Shown here piece after piece: positions 1 to 64,000 of a stretch of 64,000 nucleotides of DNA. The position numbers and the translations under genes are program-made. The notes beneath the pieces are model-generated. The model did not search any database and was not told the origin of the DNA. It saw only the letters and a list, made by a program, of their open reading frames with translations. This DNA is from Schaalia sp. ZJ405 (lineage in GTDB: Bacteria; Actinomycetota; Actinomycetes; Actinomycetales; Actinomycetaceae): the NCBI RefSeq assembly GCF_011038885.2, contig NZ_CP064952.1, positions 124,001 to 188,000 of the forward strand. Reading direction: 5' to 3'. Position 1 is the stretch's first letter; every line of letters starts with the position of its first letter.

Positions 1-753
1 CTTCGTTCCCAGCGGCGCTGGATTGTCGCGCGATGTTCCGACACCTCCGGCAGCAGTCTTCGACGGAGTTGACGATTCATCATCGCTGTCCTCGAACATA
101 TCGGAGGAGTCGTCGTGCTGTTCAATGCCGGGAATGGGCAGGTGAGAGGAGTCGAAGTGTGTCGTTTCGGCCAGCTTGCCGATGAATACGAGGTTGATGA
201 CAACGGCAATGATGGTTCCAAGAACCGCGATGATGACGGCGGCGATTGCGGTGCCGCGTTTCTTATTCTTGAGGAAGAGCCCAACGATTCCCAGGATGAG
301 GCCAGCTAAGAGTGGGATCCAGCCGATGAATGCCACAAGGGGAATGAGGGAAATGACTGCGCCGATGATTGCGAGAACCAAGCCGATAATGCCGACAACG
401 TTTGTCGTTTTCGGTGCCCCAGCGCCAGCCGGACCAGGCATTCCGGGAACCCCAGGAGTCCCAGGAACCCCGGGCATTCCGGGCCCGCCGGGGGTTGCGT
501 AGGGGCCCGGCTGCGCCTCGTACGGATACGCTGCGGTTTCCCTCTGCTGGTCGTACGGCGGCAAAGCCGTGGTCTCTTGCTCACGGGGTGCGCTGTAGGG
601 ACTTTCCGAGCTTTCGGGTGTTGTCTGCGCGTACGGCTGACCAAACTCGCCGGGCTGCTGCTCGGGGAGTTGCGTTGTCGGATCGGTCGGCTGCGCTGAG
701 TCCGTCGGATCCGAAGGGTTATCGGACGGAGGAGATCCGTAGGGATTCGTCAT
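1..753 (-). CDS. Pro-rich membrane protein with collagen-like segment (3' end off the window)
   Basis: The gene begins at the ATG at 753 behind a good ribosome site (AGAGGAACACC) and reads open to the left edge, so its C-terminus is missing. Residues 1 to about 110 are rich in Pro, Gln, Tyr, Ser and Thr and include a Gly-X-Y run (GMPGVPGTPGVPGMPG) at about 88-110. Two or three hydrophobic segments follow at about 118-190, in the style of DUF4190 membrane proteins. After an acidic Ser/Asp linker, the last visible residues, SRDNPAPLGT, resemble the start of a DUF4352-type extracellular beta domain. I infer a surface-anchored protein with a disordered cytoplasmic N-terminus. The function is unknown. 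Confidence 0.8.
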   Translation of the reverse strand, partial: MTNPYGSPPSDNPSDPTDSAQPTDPTTQLPEQQPGEFGQPYAQTTPESSESPYSAPREQETTALPPYDQQRETAAYPYEAQPGPYATPGGPGMPGVPGTPGVPGMPGPAGAGAPKTTNVVGIIGLVLAIIGAVISLIPLVAFIGWIPLLAGLILGIVGLFLKNKKRGTAIAAVIIAVLGTIIAVVINLVFIGKLAETTHFDSSHLPIPGIEQHDDSSDMFEDSDDESSTPSKTAAGGVGTSRDNPAPLGTK

Positions 754-795
754 GGTGTTCCTCTGCTGAAATGTGTGATGGAAATCTGTGATTGG

Positions 796-813
796 TGGGT
801 CAGTAATGACCCA
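796..813. promoter_or_regulatory. Perfect inverted repeat upstream of the Pro-rich membrane gene
   Basis: TGGGTCA-GTAA-TGACCCA is a perfect 7-bp palindrome with a 4-nt centre, about 43 bp upstream of the start codon at 753. It has no T-run and could be an operator. The rest of the 310-bp gap up to the tRNA gene (754-1063) shows no convincing gene. Confidence 0.35.
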
Positions 814-1025
814 AATCGTTGAAAATTTTACAGTAGGCGTATGTGGGAGGGAAGAGTGTCCTGCGTGCGGATCATCAAGCGTGAGGGTCCGCAGCCCGCG
901 CGCGAGCCCACACGAGGGACGGGAGAGAACTCGTGAGAATTGGCAGCGGAGGTTCGGGCTGGAGATAGCGGCCTCTGTATCAGCTCGCGCAGTGCATCAC
1001 GGTCAGGCTCGGGGAAACAATCAGA

Positions 1026-1055
1026 CCCGGAACCTCAAAACGTTGAGATTCCGGG
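1026..1055 (-). terminator. Terminator-like hairpin after tRNA-Pro
   Basis: CCCGGAA.CTCAA pairs with TTGAG.TTCCGGG around an AACG loop with one internal mismatch. On the minus strand it lies directly 3' of the tRNA gene and is followed by a modest T-rich stretch. Confidence 0.6.
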
Positions 1056-1063
1056 CCAATTTG

Positions 1064-61321: not shown

Positions 61322-63134
61322 ACGCCTCAACGTCTTCACGGGCGCGCTCGTCCTCGTTCATCACCGGCGCCTGGCTGGTGACCTTCAACACCCGGTAGCG
61401 GTTGATCGCGGCACCAATGTCGACAAGCCGTGGGCGCACAAGGAAGGGCGGGAACTCGCGGGCACCGAACTTCACTGCGGCGTCAAGGCCCTCGGAATTC
61501 ACCTGTCGCTCAAGACGCTTGAGTAGCTCAGGCAGGGGTGTCTTTCCGTTCGCGAACTGCTCAAGGATGCCGCGAATAAACCACGCGATCGCTTCCGTTT
61601 GCCCCGGATCAACGATCTGCTCAACATCTGTCAGATCAATGATCTGGCGGTCGAGCATGACTTCGTTGAGGCCCGTTGACTTGGTTTTCGGACGAGAATT
61701 GGAGCTTGTGGCGCGCGCGGGCATGCGCTCGGGAGTGAGTGCGGTCGCGGGTTCGTCACTTCGCCGGCGCGGCATCGCGGCAACAACCTCGCGGGCCCGT
61801 TCGGTGACATCGCGACACCGGTACTCGTCAAGCATGATCACCTGGTCGGCAACATCGAGATAATCTCCTGAACCACCCATCACCATGACAACGGACACCC
61901 CGCGGTCATGGGCGAGGGCGCCGATGCGATCAACGAGCGGGGTGATCGGTTCCTTGTCCGCGTGGACAAGCTCGCGCATTCGCGAATCCCGGATCAGGAG
62001 ATTCGTTGCGGACGTATCCTCGTCAATGAGGAGCATCTGGGCTCCCATCTCAACGGATTCAACGATTGCCGCGGCCTGCGACGTTGATCCCGACGCGTTC
62101 TCGGTGGAAAACACCGTCGTGTCGATCCCCCCGGGCAGGTGTGAGATGAACGGGGACACATCCACGCCGGTGACCGCGCGTCCGTCTGCGGCCCGCACTT
62201 TCACAGCCGTGGGGACCGTGGCAACGAGCTCGCGTCCATCCCCGGGAATATGTGCGTACACGCCGCGCTGGAGGGCACCCAGCAGCGTGGATTTCCCGTG
62301 GTAGCCACCGCCCACGATCAGCGTGATTCCCGGTGTGATGACCATGCCGGATACCTCGCCTGCGTGAGGCAGAGTGACGGTGCGGCGCATGGACTCTGGG
62401 GACTCGAAAGCAATGACGCCATCGCCCGTCATTGGTAGCTGCGACACCCCGGATTTGCGTGCAAGAACGGAATGGTCGCCAACGAAGGCCAGCCACCCGT
62501 TTTCTTCAAGGAGTTCCTGCAGTGCGCAATGATCCTCATAGGTGGCGATGTGTCCACGGAGGGCGCGTCGCTGGACATCTGTTCGTGGATCGTCGGATAC
62601 GTAGTCGAAGGTGTCCATGACGATGTTGGGAATGTCAACGTCGAATAGTCCGGCGGCCTCGTGTCCGCGAATTGTTCGTCCTCGTGCGGGAAGATGCACC
62701 TGGAAACGCACCTCAACGCGGTCGGGGAGGACGGTTGCGCTTGAGCGTTGGAGAATCTCCTGACCCGGATGTGCGATACGGACCGTACCTGCGGCGTTGT
62801 TCTGACGGATCGCGTTCTCGAAGGTCCGCGCAAGGAAATCTGCCGCAGCAAGACGCGCATCTGCGTGTGCGATGGCTTCGGCTGGCAGACCCATGCGTTC
62901 GGGTGTCGTGATTGCACGGACCTGGGTTGGCGGCGCATAGGGGTCGGACTGGACGCGGTCAATTGACAGCGAGAAATCCCCGTAGTCCCAGTTGCCCGTC
63001 AGGGACTTGTACGTTCCGTACGGGCGTCCGTCGATCCGGTGGAGATCACCGATGAGGTCCTTGTCGGTTCCTTCGCGCCGCCGGGGGCTGTCGGAGTTCT
63101 TGCGTTGCCCGTGGTGAGCGTAAGGGGGAGTCAT
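61296..63134 (-). CDS. ABC-class ATPase (PF09818 type)
   Basis: This 612-residue protein has Walker A GGGYHGKSTLL, SGSTSQAAAIVESVEMG as a signature-like stretch and Walker B MLLIDEDTSATNLLI, the hallmarks of the 'predicted ATPase of the ABC class' family. No transporter partner is near; the role is unknown. Start ATG 63134 has GGAAGGAA 7 nt upstream. The extreme C-terminus (VMNEDERARED) is supplied by a dispersed-motif copy (61348), and another copy lies at 62676. Confidence 0.88.
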   Translation of the reverse strand: MTPPYAHHGQRKNSDSPRRREGTDKDLIGDLHRIDGRPYGTYKSLTGNWDYGDFSLSIDRVQSDPYAPPTQVRAITTPERMGLPAEAIAHADARLAAADFLARTFENAIRQNNAAGTVRIAHPGQEILQRSSATVLPDRVEVRFQVHLPARGRTIRGHEAAGLFDVDIPNIVMDTFDYVSDDPRTDVQRRALRGHIATYEDHCALQELLEENGWLAFVGDHSVLARKSGVSQLPMTGDGVIAFESPESMRRTVTLPHAGEVSGMVITPGITLIVGGGYHGKSTLLGALQRGVYAHIPGDGRELVATVPTAVKVRAADGRAVTGVDVSPFISHLPGGIDTTVFSTENASGSTSQAAAIVESVEMGAQMLLIDEDTSATNLLIRDSRMRELVHADKEPITPLVDRIGALAHDRGVSVVMVMGGSGDYLDVADQVIMLDEYRCRDVTERAREVVAAMPRRRSDEPATALTPERMPARATSSNSRPKTKSTGLNEVMLDRQIIDLTDVEQIVDPGQTEAIAWFIRGILEQFANGKTPLPELLKRLERQVNSEGLDAAVKFGAREFPPFLVRPRLVDIGAAINRYRVLKVTSQAPVMNEDERAREDVEASTQYQGIL

Positions 63135-63252
63135 CGGGGTTTCCTTCCGCGAACGTGTTCGGTTCACTCACCGTCATTGGCTGCGAGCAGCCGTTGACGG
63201 GTCCTTTCCAGCGTGAGTGTAGGCGGGGAGGGCCGACAGGGAACCCCCGGGA

Positions 63253-63338
63253 GCCCTCACCCGCTCCTCTCGTACGCGCGCTGAGTGCGCGTCTGGGCGC
63301 TGGTGATCTTAGGGGACGAGGACGAGTGCCCTCACCCG
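63253..63338. repeat. Direct repeats bracketing an intergenic dispersed-motif copy
   Basis: GCCCTCACCCG occurs at 63253-63263 and 63328-63338. The motif GGGGACGAGGACGAG (core 63317-63325) lies between them, right before the second copy. The palindromic GTACGCGCGC and GTGCGCGTC run is also inside. There is no gene in this 205-bp gap. Confidence 0.6.
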
Positions 63339-63339
63339 A

Positions 63340-64000
63340 TCACAGCATGCAGGACACGCAGCCTTCGACCGCGGTTCCTTCGAGAGCCATCTGACGTAGA
63401 CGCATGTAGTACAGCGTCTTGATGCCGTTCCTCCACGCGTAGATGTAGGACTTGTTGATGTCTCGGGTGGTCACGGTGTCTGGGTAGAACAGCGTCAGAG
63501 ACAGACCCTGATCAACGTGCTGCGTGGCCACAGCGTAGGTGTCGATAATTTTTTCCGGGCCGATTTCGTAGGCGTCCTCGTAGTATTCGAGGTTGTCGTT
63601 TGTCATGTACGGCGCCGGGTAGTACACGCGGCCGATCTTGCCCTCTTTGCGGATTTCGATCTTCGAGACAATCGGGTGGATCGACGAGGTGGAGTTGTTG
63701 ATGTAGCTGATCGACCCCGTTGGTGGAACCGCCTGGAGGTTCTGGTTGTACATTCCGTAGGTCTTGACGTCCTCTGCAAGCCTCTTCCAGTCTTCACTGG
63801 TGGGGACCCGGATTGTGGACTTTGCCAGGAGCTCGCGGCACTTATCTGTTGTTGGCTCCCAGGTTCCGTTGATGTACTTGTCGAAGTACTCGCCGCTTGC
63901 GTACGTTGAATCGCGGAACCCCTCGAAGGCGATGCCGCGTTCCTTTGCGATGAGGCACGACGTGCGAATCGCCTCGTAGGCAACGGTCATGAAGTACATG
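63340..64000 (-). CDS. nrdE: Class Ib ribonucleotide reductase, alpha subunit (5' end off the window)
   Basis: The C-terminal 219-odd residues of NrdE are present: TGSISYINNSTSSIHPIVSKIE, LFYPDTVTTRDINKSYIYAWRNGIKTLYYMRLRQ and the redox-active C-terminal EGCVSCML. The frame is open to the right edge. It partners NrdF encoded at 48692-49654. Genes between the two are unrelated to nucleotide reduction. Confidence 0.96.
   Translation of the reverse strand, partial: MYFMTVAYEAIRTSCLIAKERGIAFEGFRDSTYASGEYFDKYINGTWEPTTDKCRELLAKSTIRVPTSEDWKRLAEDVKTYGMYNQNLQAVPPTGSISYINNSTSSIHPIVSKIEIRKEGKIGRVYYPAPYMTNDNLEYYEDAYEIGPEKIIDTYAVATQHVDQGLSLTLFYPDTVTTRDINKSYIYAWRNGIKTLYYMRLRQMALEGTAVEGCVSCML

Follow-up and report, generated by a model that had tools for sequence, protein, structure and literature searches.

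What kind of site is a nine-base word that recurs, on both strands, through a whole stretch of bacterial chromosome? The word is CGAGGACGA, and the stretch (the window) comprises 64,000 nt of Schaalia sp. ZJ405 (contig NZ_CP064952.1, positions 124001–188000; the genome is labelled G000). Genes and sequence statistics, from which the preference in uptake is deduced, indicate that CGAGGACGA is probably the core of a DNA uptake sequence (DUS), and the whole is best read as a dialect-forming DUS system that arose convergently with the systems of Neisseriaceae and Pasteurellaceae. A preliminary description of the window had offered an uptake sequence or another distributed recognition site; the former is supported by an enrichment that is genome-wide, independent of codon use and non-polar, by dialects among related species, by two prophage regions that are not enriched, and by the presence of uptake genes.

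Copies in the window and across the chromosome

The window holds 33 copies of CGAGGACGA (14 on the plus and 19 on the minus strand; Table 1), whereas 100 dinucleotide shuffles average 1.75 and never exceed 6, and an order-3 Markov model predicts 2.7. The 30 places listed by eye in the preliminary description are all correct on recount, and three further copies had been missed. Its chance expectation of less than one was too low by either model, and the excess that it reported holds, as does its remark that most copies are preceded by A (25 of 33). By the gene calls made here, predicted genes contain 28 of the 33 copies, 15 in sense and 13 in antisense orientation, and the other five are intergenic. 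The earlier placement of copies between genes, at gene ends and in protein linkers is only partly right on these counts; the larger sample described below has a non-coding excess.

On the chromosome (one contig, 2,345,961 bases), CGAGGACGA occurs 1001 times (481 plus, 520 minus), approximately one core copy per 2.3 kb, against 34 occurrences (15 + 19) of the reversed pattern; the 10-mer ACGAGGACGA occurs 664 times, against 6 for its reversed control. The reversed-pattern control covers the whole genome. Codon control and motif anatomy were determined in a sample of 864 kb out of 2.35 Mb, made up of the window and 40 stretches of 20 kb, to which the other G000 counts below refer unless the genome is named. 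The 384 core copies in the sample define the consensus [AG][TG][GT][GA]A-CGAGGACGA-GGnCG, which spans about 19 bp: positions from roughly −5 to +13 are informative, and those outside contribute little. Enrichment over an order-4 Markov model climbs with length, from 14-fold for ACGAGGACGA to 39-fold for ACGAGGACGAGG and 350-fold for GGGGACGAGGACGA. The A, C, G and T variants of CGAGGNCG number 669, 306, 266 and 235; all four are enriched, A the most.

Gene calling on the sample gave 663 genes (81.6% coding), which contain 283 of the core copies (142 sense, 141 antisense); the remaining 101 are non-coding, against 70.6 expected. A codon shuffle of 20 rounds, in which each protein and its codon use are preserved, yields 30.4 sense and 18.0 antisense copies, with a largest shuffled total of 65. 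Coding copies of ACGAGGACGA number 92 sense and 72 antisense (17.2 and 4.3 in the shuffle), and the reversed motif is not enriched (6 and 6 against 4.1 and 5.4). Two outcomes named beforehand as damaging to the idea, a frequency matching a codon-aware background and an enrichment confined to Glu-Asp-Glu codons in one frame, are contradicted by these numbers: the coding copies far exceed the shuffle maximum, and the Glu-Asp-Glu frame, which holds 119 of the 142 sense copies, does not include the enriched antisense copies or those outside genes. Among gaps of 30–600 bp, the density of CGAGGACGA is highest between convergent genes (1.38 per kb), followed by tandem (0.91) and divergent (0.79) arrangements, compared with 0.40 in genes. 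Deciles along genes show no clear bias of the motif towards gene ends.

Dialects in Schaalia, its sister genus and outgroups

Relatives were sampled from 25 same-genus genomes with long contigs (34 were offered), at 4 × 20 kb each, together with 40 kb of G032. The ComEA of G000 is 94% identical to that of Schaalia sp. ZJ1691, that of G012 is identical to that of Actinomyces culturomici, and those of G019, G028 and G034 are 89–90% identical to one named Schaalia odontolytica. Ranked by an order-3 Markov score, the top 8-mer contains CGAGG in 25 of the 26 sampled relatives and in four G000 stretches. Around this core, G000 has the dialect ACGAGGACG; ACGAGGGCG (the G dialect) is found, for example, in G006, G013, G014 and G015; ACGAGGCCGGGG (the C dialect) in G009, G010, G019, G023, G025, G028, G031 and G034; CGAGGCCG, preceded by A or C, in G016 and G018; CCGAGGCC in G024 and G026; and CCGAGGCGG in G030. 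Whole genomes contain 1717 (G013), 1586 (G014) and 257 (G000) copies of ACGAGGGCG, and 1131 (G010), 1021 (G019) and 285 (G000) copies of ACGAGGCCG.

Codon control was repeated for each relative (80 kb, six shuffles, chosen dialect pattern), and coding copies reached at least twice the shuffled number in 24 of 25, the exception being G005. Observed and shuffled copies in G014 are 8 and 0.5 sense and 12 and 0.5 antisense; for CCGAGGCCG in G024 they are 11 and 1.5 sense and 9 and 0.3 antisense; and in G028 they are 8 and 2.7 sense and 16 and 4.2 antisense, with 20 further copies in non-coding DNA.

A tree of LepA, HolA and ComEC was built for 24 relatives and G000, with absent genes as gaps and with G008, G032 and G035 left out. 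The ACGAGGCCGGGG genomes are monophyletic in it, and the CGAGGCC genomes together with G030 (CCGAGGCGG) form another monophyletic clade. G000 stands alone, and the G dialect is paraphyletic over the remaining genomes; ACGAGGGCG looks ancestral, since it is spread over the rest of the tree. The dialects appear, from these sequences, to fit the species tree.

In the sister genus, represented by 40 kb of G035, ACGAGGNCG words are at background, and CGACGCCG exceeds the codon shuffle (L245–L246: sense 10 against 1.5, antisense 6 against 0.3, with 9 non-coding copies). Genome-wide, ACGACGCCG, which differs by one base from the C dialect of Schaalia, occurs 542 times, against 65 for the reversed pattern (8.3-fold), and the sister genus seems to use this form. 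Further out, ACGAGGNCG reaches 0.8 to 1.5 times the codon shuffle in the pooled loci of seven outgroup sets, and CGAGG 8-mers rank 7th to 106th, and first in none, of ten outgroup sets. The best ratio over the reversed control reaches 8 or more in 33 of the 35 genomes of the genus (three patterns) and in 1 of the 21 at order level (two patterns). In the Arthrobacter-like loci L062, L063, L072, L075, L076 and L089, CGACGNCG occurs at about 1.5 to 2.7 times the codon shuffle; no uptake motif is claimed there, because this mild excess recurs, more mildly still, in several other actinobacterial outgroups.

Polarity, foreign DNA and hairpin copies

The motif has no clear strand bias over the genome (481 and 520; binomial p 0.23) and no replichore polarity in the sample (178 leading and 206 lagging copies, p 0.17, with ori and ter positions assigned from GC skew). 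The preliminary description, which reported no strand bias and on that ground argued against polarity of the kind seen in FtsK-orienting polar sequences (KOPS), is upheld on both points, the strong terminus polarity of KOPS being absent. Copies are not regularly spaced (coefficient of variation 1.46), and the core is present in 39 of the 40 sampled stretches, the exception, L036, carrying prophage genes.

Two prophage regions lack the enrichment. The two poorest 10-kb intervals of the sample hold no CGAGGNCG, against a mean of 17 per 10 kb, and 9 of the 10 proteins scanned in them match phage families, mostly of head and tail. The two prophage regions, L036 9594–18998 and L042 4768–15951, hold 1 and 0 copies of CGAGGNCG; at the sample average (1.71 per kb) approximately 16 and 19 would be present, and a Markov model gives 1.7 and 2.6. 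As these counts match the regions' own composition and fall far under the sample average, the two regions examined are without enrichment, yet not depleted below chance. Prophage structural genes occupy L036:9594–18998 and L042:7065–15951. Other motif-poor stretches carry ordinary sugar-use, transport and surface genes. Phage LC001, whose host is S. odontolytica, contains 2 copies of ACGAGGCCG, against a Markov expectation of 0.68.

A Chi-like recombination hotspot, read by an AddAB- or AdnAB-type helicase–nuclease and sparing self DNA in break repair, would also be short, frequent, genome-wide, non-palindromic and un-enriched in these two prophage regions, and its sequence could be lineage-specific. 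It is nevertheless an unlikely explanation. Chi sites are polar with replication, and hairpin copies, or several dialects in one genus, are untypical of them; the motif has no replication orientation bias, has hairpin copies (described below) and has multiple dialects within Schaalia. RecC (PF04257), which matched only E. coli among 14 control genomes, has no match in the G000 genome (0/1) in a search that did not include AddAB or AdnAB. Also improbable is a chromosome-organising site for a nucleoid, SMC-loading or segregation protein. The density of about one core per 2.3 kb over the chromosome would suit such a role, and slow acquisition would fit the un-enriched prophages, but the motif has neither KOPS-like polarity nor regional restriction, being found in nearly all sampled stretches; each shift of dialect would presumably need a core chromosomal protein to change with it, and hairpins would be unexpected.

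The same two prophage regions would be explained by a self-mark of a defence or modification system, in which motif-bearing DNA is methylated or spared and foreign DNA is attacked. This is very unlikely: the long, graded flanks are unlike an enzyme site, and the motif is amplified, whereas restriction–modification recognition sites are usually neutral or avoided. An uptake sequence is favoured over other recognition sites because the dialects are clade-specific and two prophage regions lack enrichment.

Inverted pairs are prominent in the C-dialect clade. Its eight genomes contain 264 copies in 640 kb, with 24 pairs in plus–minus order 20–59 bp apart, against approximately one expected; the independent number of pairs is smaller, because 15 of the 24 are in comEC-region stretches homologous between genomes, with nine elsewhere. 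The four pairs that were folded all form strong hairpins (−47 to −62.6 kcal/mol, z −7.1 to −10.1). Two examples, L220:12422–12472 and L226:10253–10302, have no T tract after them, and none of the 24 pairs has at least 8 T in the 15 bases beyond either end; if these hairpins end transcription, they would therefore do so without a T tract. A mobile hairpin repeat, of the repetitive extragenic palindromic (REP) type, spread by a transposase and leaving single copies as degenerate forms, would account for such pairs and has only a slight probability: the majority in G000 are solitary copies within genes, distributed over the two strands, sequence preference is slight outside about 20 bp, and Y1_Tnp/RAYT (PF01797) has no match (0/1) in a search that covered the G000 genome and not the C-dialect genomes. 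Last, an origin of the motif in base composition and in the codons used for Glu-Asp-Glu (GAG GAC GAG), suggested by the frame of most sense copies, is refuted for G000 by the codon shuffle (at most 65 copies against 283 observed) and by the enrichment of antisense and non-coding copies, and has a negligible probability; G005 shows no codon-aware excess for the patterns tried.

Several other repeated elements were recorded. A second enriched word, CCGCGAGCGC, has 47 copies in the sample, against 4.5 by an order-4 Markov model, 44 of them in genes. At L010:45–493 (genome about 60,045–60,493), eight direct repeats of AAGTCTATCAGGGGGAACGATGACTGA with a 64-bp period and varying spacers look like a CRISPR array. 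An intergenic repeat, which contains TGAATCTTTTCAGTGTGACGTTTTTG or similar sequences and is frequently arrayed in tandem at intervals of approximately 73 bp, is present in L011, L012, L013, L020, L030, L039, L044 and L046, and 14 of the 15 sample copies of GTGACGTTTTTG are intergenic. In the window, the sole tRNA gene found is a tRNA-Pro (CGG) at 1063–1137.

Table 1 Copies of the motif core CGAGGACGA in the window, with gene context from the gene calls made here
Position	Strand	Gene context	Remark
1936..1944	+	antisense, predicted gene	
2356..2364	-	sense, PBP1A-like gene 2322-4460	
4953..4961	+	intergenic	
9096..9104	-	sense, predicted gene	
11848..11856	-	antisense, predicted gene	missed earlier
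12201..12209	-	antisense, predicted gene	left arm, inverted pair with 12221
12221..12229	+	sense, predicted gene	right arm, inverted pair with 12201
13832..13840	-	antisense, predicted gene	missed earlier
15506..15514	-	sense, predicted gene	
16304..16312	+	antisense, predicted gene	
16428..16436	+	antisense, predicted gene	
23664..23672	+	intergenic	
23921..23929	-	sense, predicted gene	
28859..28867	-	sense, predicted gene	
29234..29242	+	antisense, predicted gene	
30897..30905	-	sense, adenosylhomocysteinase-like gene	
32100..32108	-	sense, adenosylhomocysteinase-like gene	
35029..35037	+	intergenic	
36654..36662	-	intergenic	
40347..40355	-	sense, predicted gene	
41719..41727	+	antisense, Ser/Thr kinase-like gene	
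45574..45582	+	antisense, predicted gene	
47187..47195	-	sense, predicted gene	
47443..47451	+	antisense, predicted gene	missed earlier
48708..48716	-	sense, predicted gene	
50893..50901	-	sense, predicted gene	
50966..50974	-	sense, predicted gene	
53308..53316	+	antisense, predicted gene	
59213..59221	+	antisense, oligopeptidase B-like gene	
61018..61026	-	antisense, predicted gene	
61348..61356	-	sense, predicted gene	
62676..62684	-	sense, predicted gene	
63317..63325	+	intergenic	

Uptake genes, proposed mechanism and known systems

The genes comEC, comEA, dprA and tad, which the preliminary description proposed looking for, are all present as genes in G000, together with a prepilin peptidase. 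There, comEC adjoins comEA, dprA is at 1003987 and the one prepilin peptidase at 1253663; the two tad loci give T2SSE (TadA-type) matches at 93968–94684 and 1718777–1719595, and two further T2SSE matches were counted. A regular-expression scan of three stretches found no type IV prepilins. T2SSE matches at E 1e-129 or better, taken for PilB-type ATPases, occur in 11 order-level relatives, and the best match within the genus is at 1e-49. In L239, a transposase gene with an integrase core domain (13206–14609) directly follows a tad locus.

If CGAGGACGA is the core of an uptake sequence, the cell would be naturally competent, and the Tad/Flp pilus encoded by its two tad loci would capture double-stranded DNA outside the wall. 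A candidate surface protein, perhaps a minor Tad pilin or ComEA, would act as the receptor that prefers motif-bearing fragments; ComEC would then move one strand inward, and DprA and a predicted RecA would recombine it. Motif copies are proposed to accumulate on both strands, chromosome-wide, because motif-bearing fragments would be preferentially taken up and recombined, this biased uptake being combined with turnover, and lineages would drift into dialects around the common CGAGG core.

Several observations weigh against this reading. The motif is only slightly commoner in widely conserved genes than in others, with CGAGGNCG at 1.68 per kb in the 382 genes without a sampled relative and at 1.87–2.19 per kb in the 235 genes with at least one. 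Between close species, the motif is kept at 9/11, 6/8, 4/6, 6/8 and 3/4 sites, against 0.75, 0.58, 0.33, 0.55 and 0.35 for 9-mers of equal composition, which is only a trend, from overlapping pairs and small numbers. G000 itself has only a mild excess of inverted pairs. The very GC-rich G007 and G012 reach only an approximately two-fold codon-aware excess, and G005 none for the patterns tried. G032 (49% GC) has no motif in 40 kb, no CGAGG 8-mer among its top words and control-level counts genome-wide, although comEC and two T2SSE matches are present there; the system may be lost in this genome, or its dialect may be one that 40 kb does not reveal. A second motif considered in G032, GAGGCAAAGG, was rejected because it belongs to a 30-bp tandem repeat, with 8 of its 9 copies in a single stretch; this leaves the genome without a detected motif.

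The controls and the gene content add to these points. The reversed control is not clean, an order-level outgroup, G054, reaching 11.7-fold for ACGAGGGCG, and reversed-pattern counts alone are too lenient for GC-rich genomes. The C-dialect relative G010 has 309 copies of ACGACGCCG against 41 reversed, 7.5-fold too, so that the dialect of the sister-genus genome G035 depends on the codon-aware test of its 40 kb. Because comEC and tad-type ATPases are present in most order-level relatives searched, the presence of uptake genes is weak evidence. In the accessible open-licence PMC literature, no description of Schaalia itself as naturally transformable was found.

On balance, it is likely that sequence-tagged uptake arose independently for a third time in Schaalia. 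No monoderm phylum and no Tad pilus would have provided an earlier case, and the system would be family-wide, with at least five dialects (ACGAGGACG, ACGAGGGCG, ACGAGGCCGGGG, CCGAGGCC/CCGAGGCGG and, in the sister genus, ACGACGCCG) that would keep Schaalia species sexually apart and make the genomes of uncultured relatives readable for competence and mating groups. If true, this convergent actinobacterial case would mean that sequence-tagged uptake evolves with a different pilus, and the dialects would offer a comparative system for the co-evolution of uptake dialects and receptors. Natural competence would be predicted in oral species, S. odontolytica among them, and GACGAGGCCGGGGC would be a directly testable tag for the clade with S. 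odontolytica-like ComEAs. S. odontolytica, the host of the epibiont TM7x, was subjected to electroporation in one study, in whose available text the word 'competence' is absent (PMC12369343). Natural competence is described for Saccharibacteria co-cultured with hosts that include S. odontolytica, and the competence of the hosts is not stated in the available text (PMC10633639).

Among known systems, the evolution of sequence-tagged uptake has been placed in two Gram-negative families (PMC5031613), and the accessible open-licence PMC literature, a scope that excludes subscription papers and preprints, contains no report of an uptake sequence in actinobacteria. The DUS dialects of Neisseriaceae are the precedent (PMC3630211): as in Schaalia, many short genomic copies share a common core, and dialects follow phylogeny (PMC3630211, PMC6370729, PMC2346458). 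Classical uptake sequences likewise have no general orientation bias; they also include inverted-repeat copies, for which a role as terminators has been proposed (PMC2346458). The systems differ in that the Neisseriaceae sequence is GCCGTCTGAA, compared with ACGAGGnCG in Schaalia, and in that Neisseriaceae use type IV pili with ComP, whereas Schaalia is a monoderm with tad loci and T2SSE matches of at most E 1e-49 quality, and its uptake bias is deduced from sequence alone. The uptake signal sequence (USS) of Pasteurellaceae resembles the Schaalia motif in its core of about 9 bp, its hundreds to thousands of copies, its dialects and its lack of a general orientation bias (PMC5031613, PMC2346458), and differs in sequence (AAGTGCGGT) and in its Gram-negative hosts (PMC5031613), as well as in a reported gene-end bias that is not clear in G000 (PMC5031613, PMC2346458). 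Compared by eye, the G000 consensus shares neither GCCGTCTGAA nor AAGTGCGGT. Chi sites are similarly short, frequent and non-palindromic, and the Schaalia motif differs from them in its lack of replication polarity and of a RecC match.

For the machinery, the comparison is with Tad/Flp-pilus transformation in the actinobacterium Micrococcus luteus. The term 'uptake sequence' is absent from the available text of two M. luteus papers (PMC4322843, in this respect different from the present case, and PMC8467076). Transformation of M. luteus needs tad genes, and comEA and comEC are present; like G000, it is an actinobacterium with two tad clusters, comEA/comEC and a prepilin peptidase gene that lies apart from the tad genes (PMC4322843, PMC6370729).

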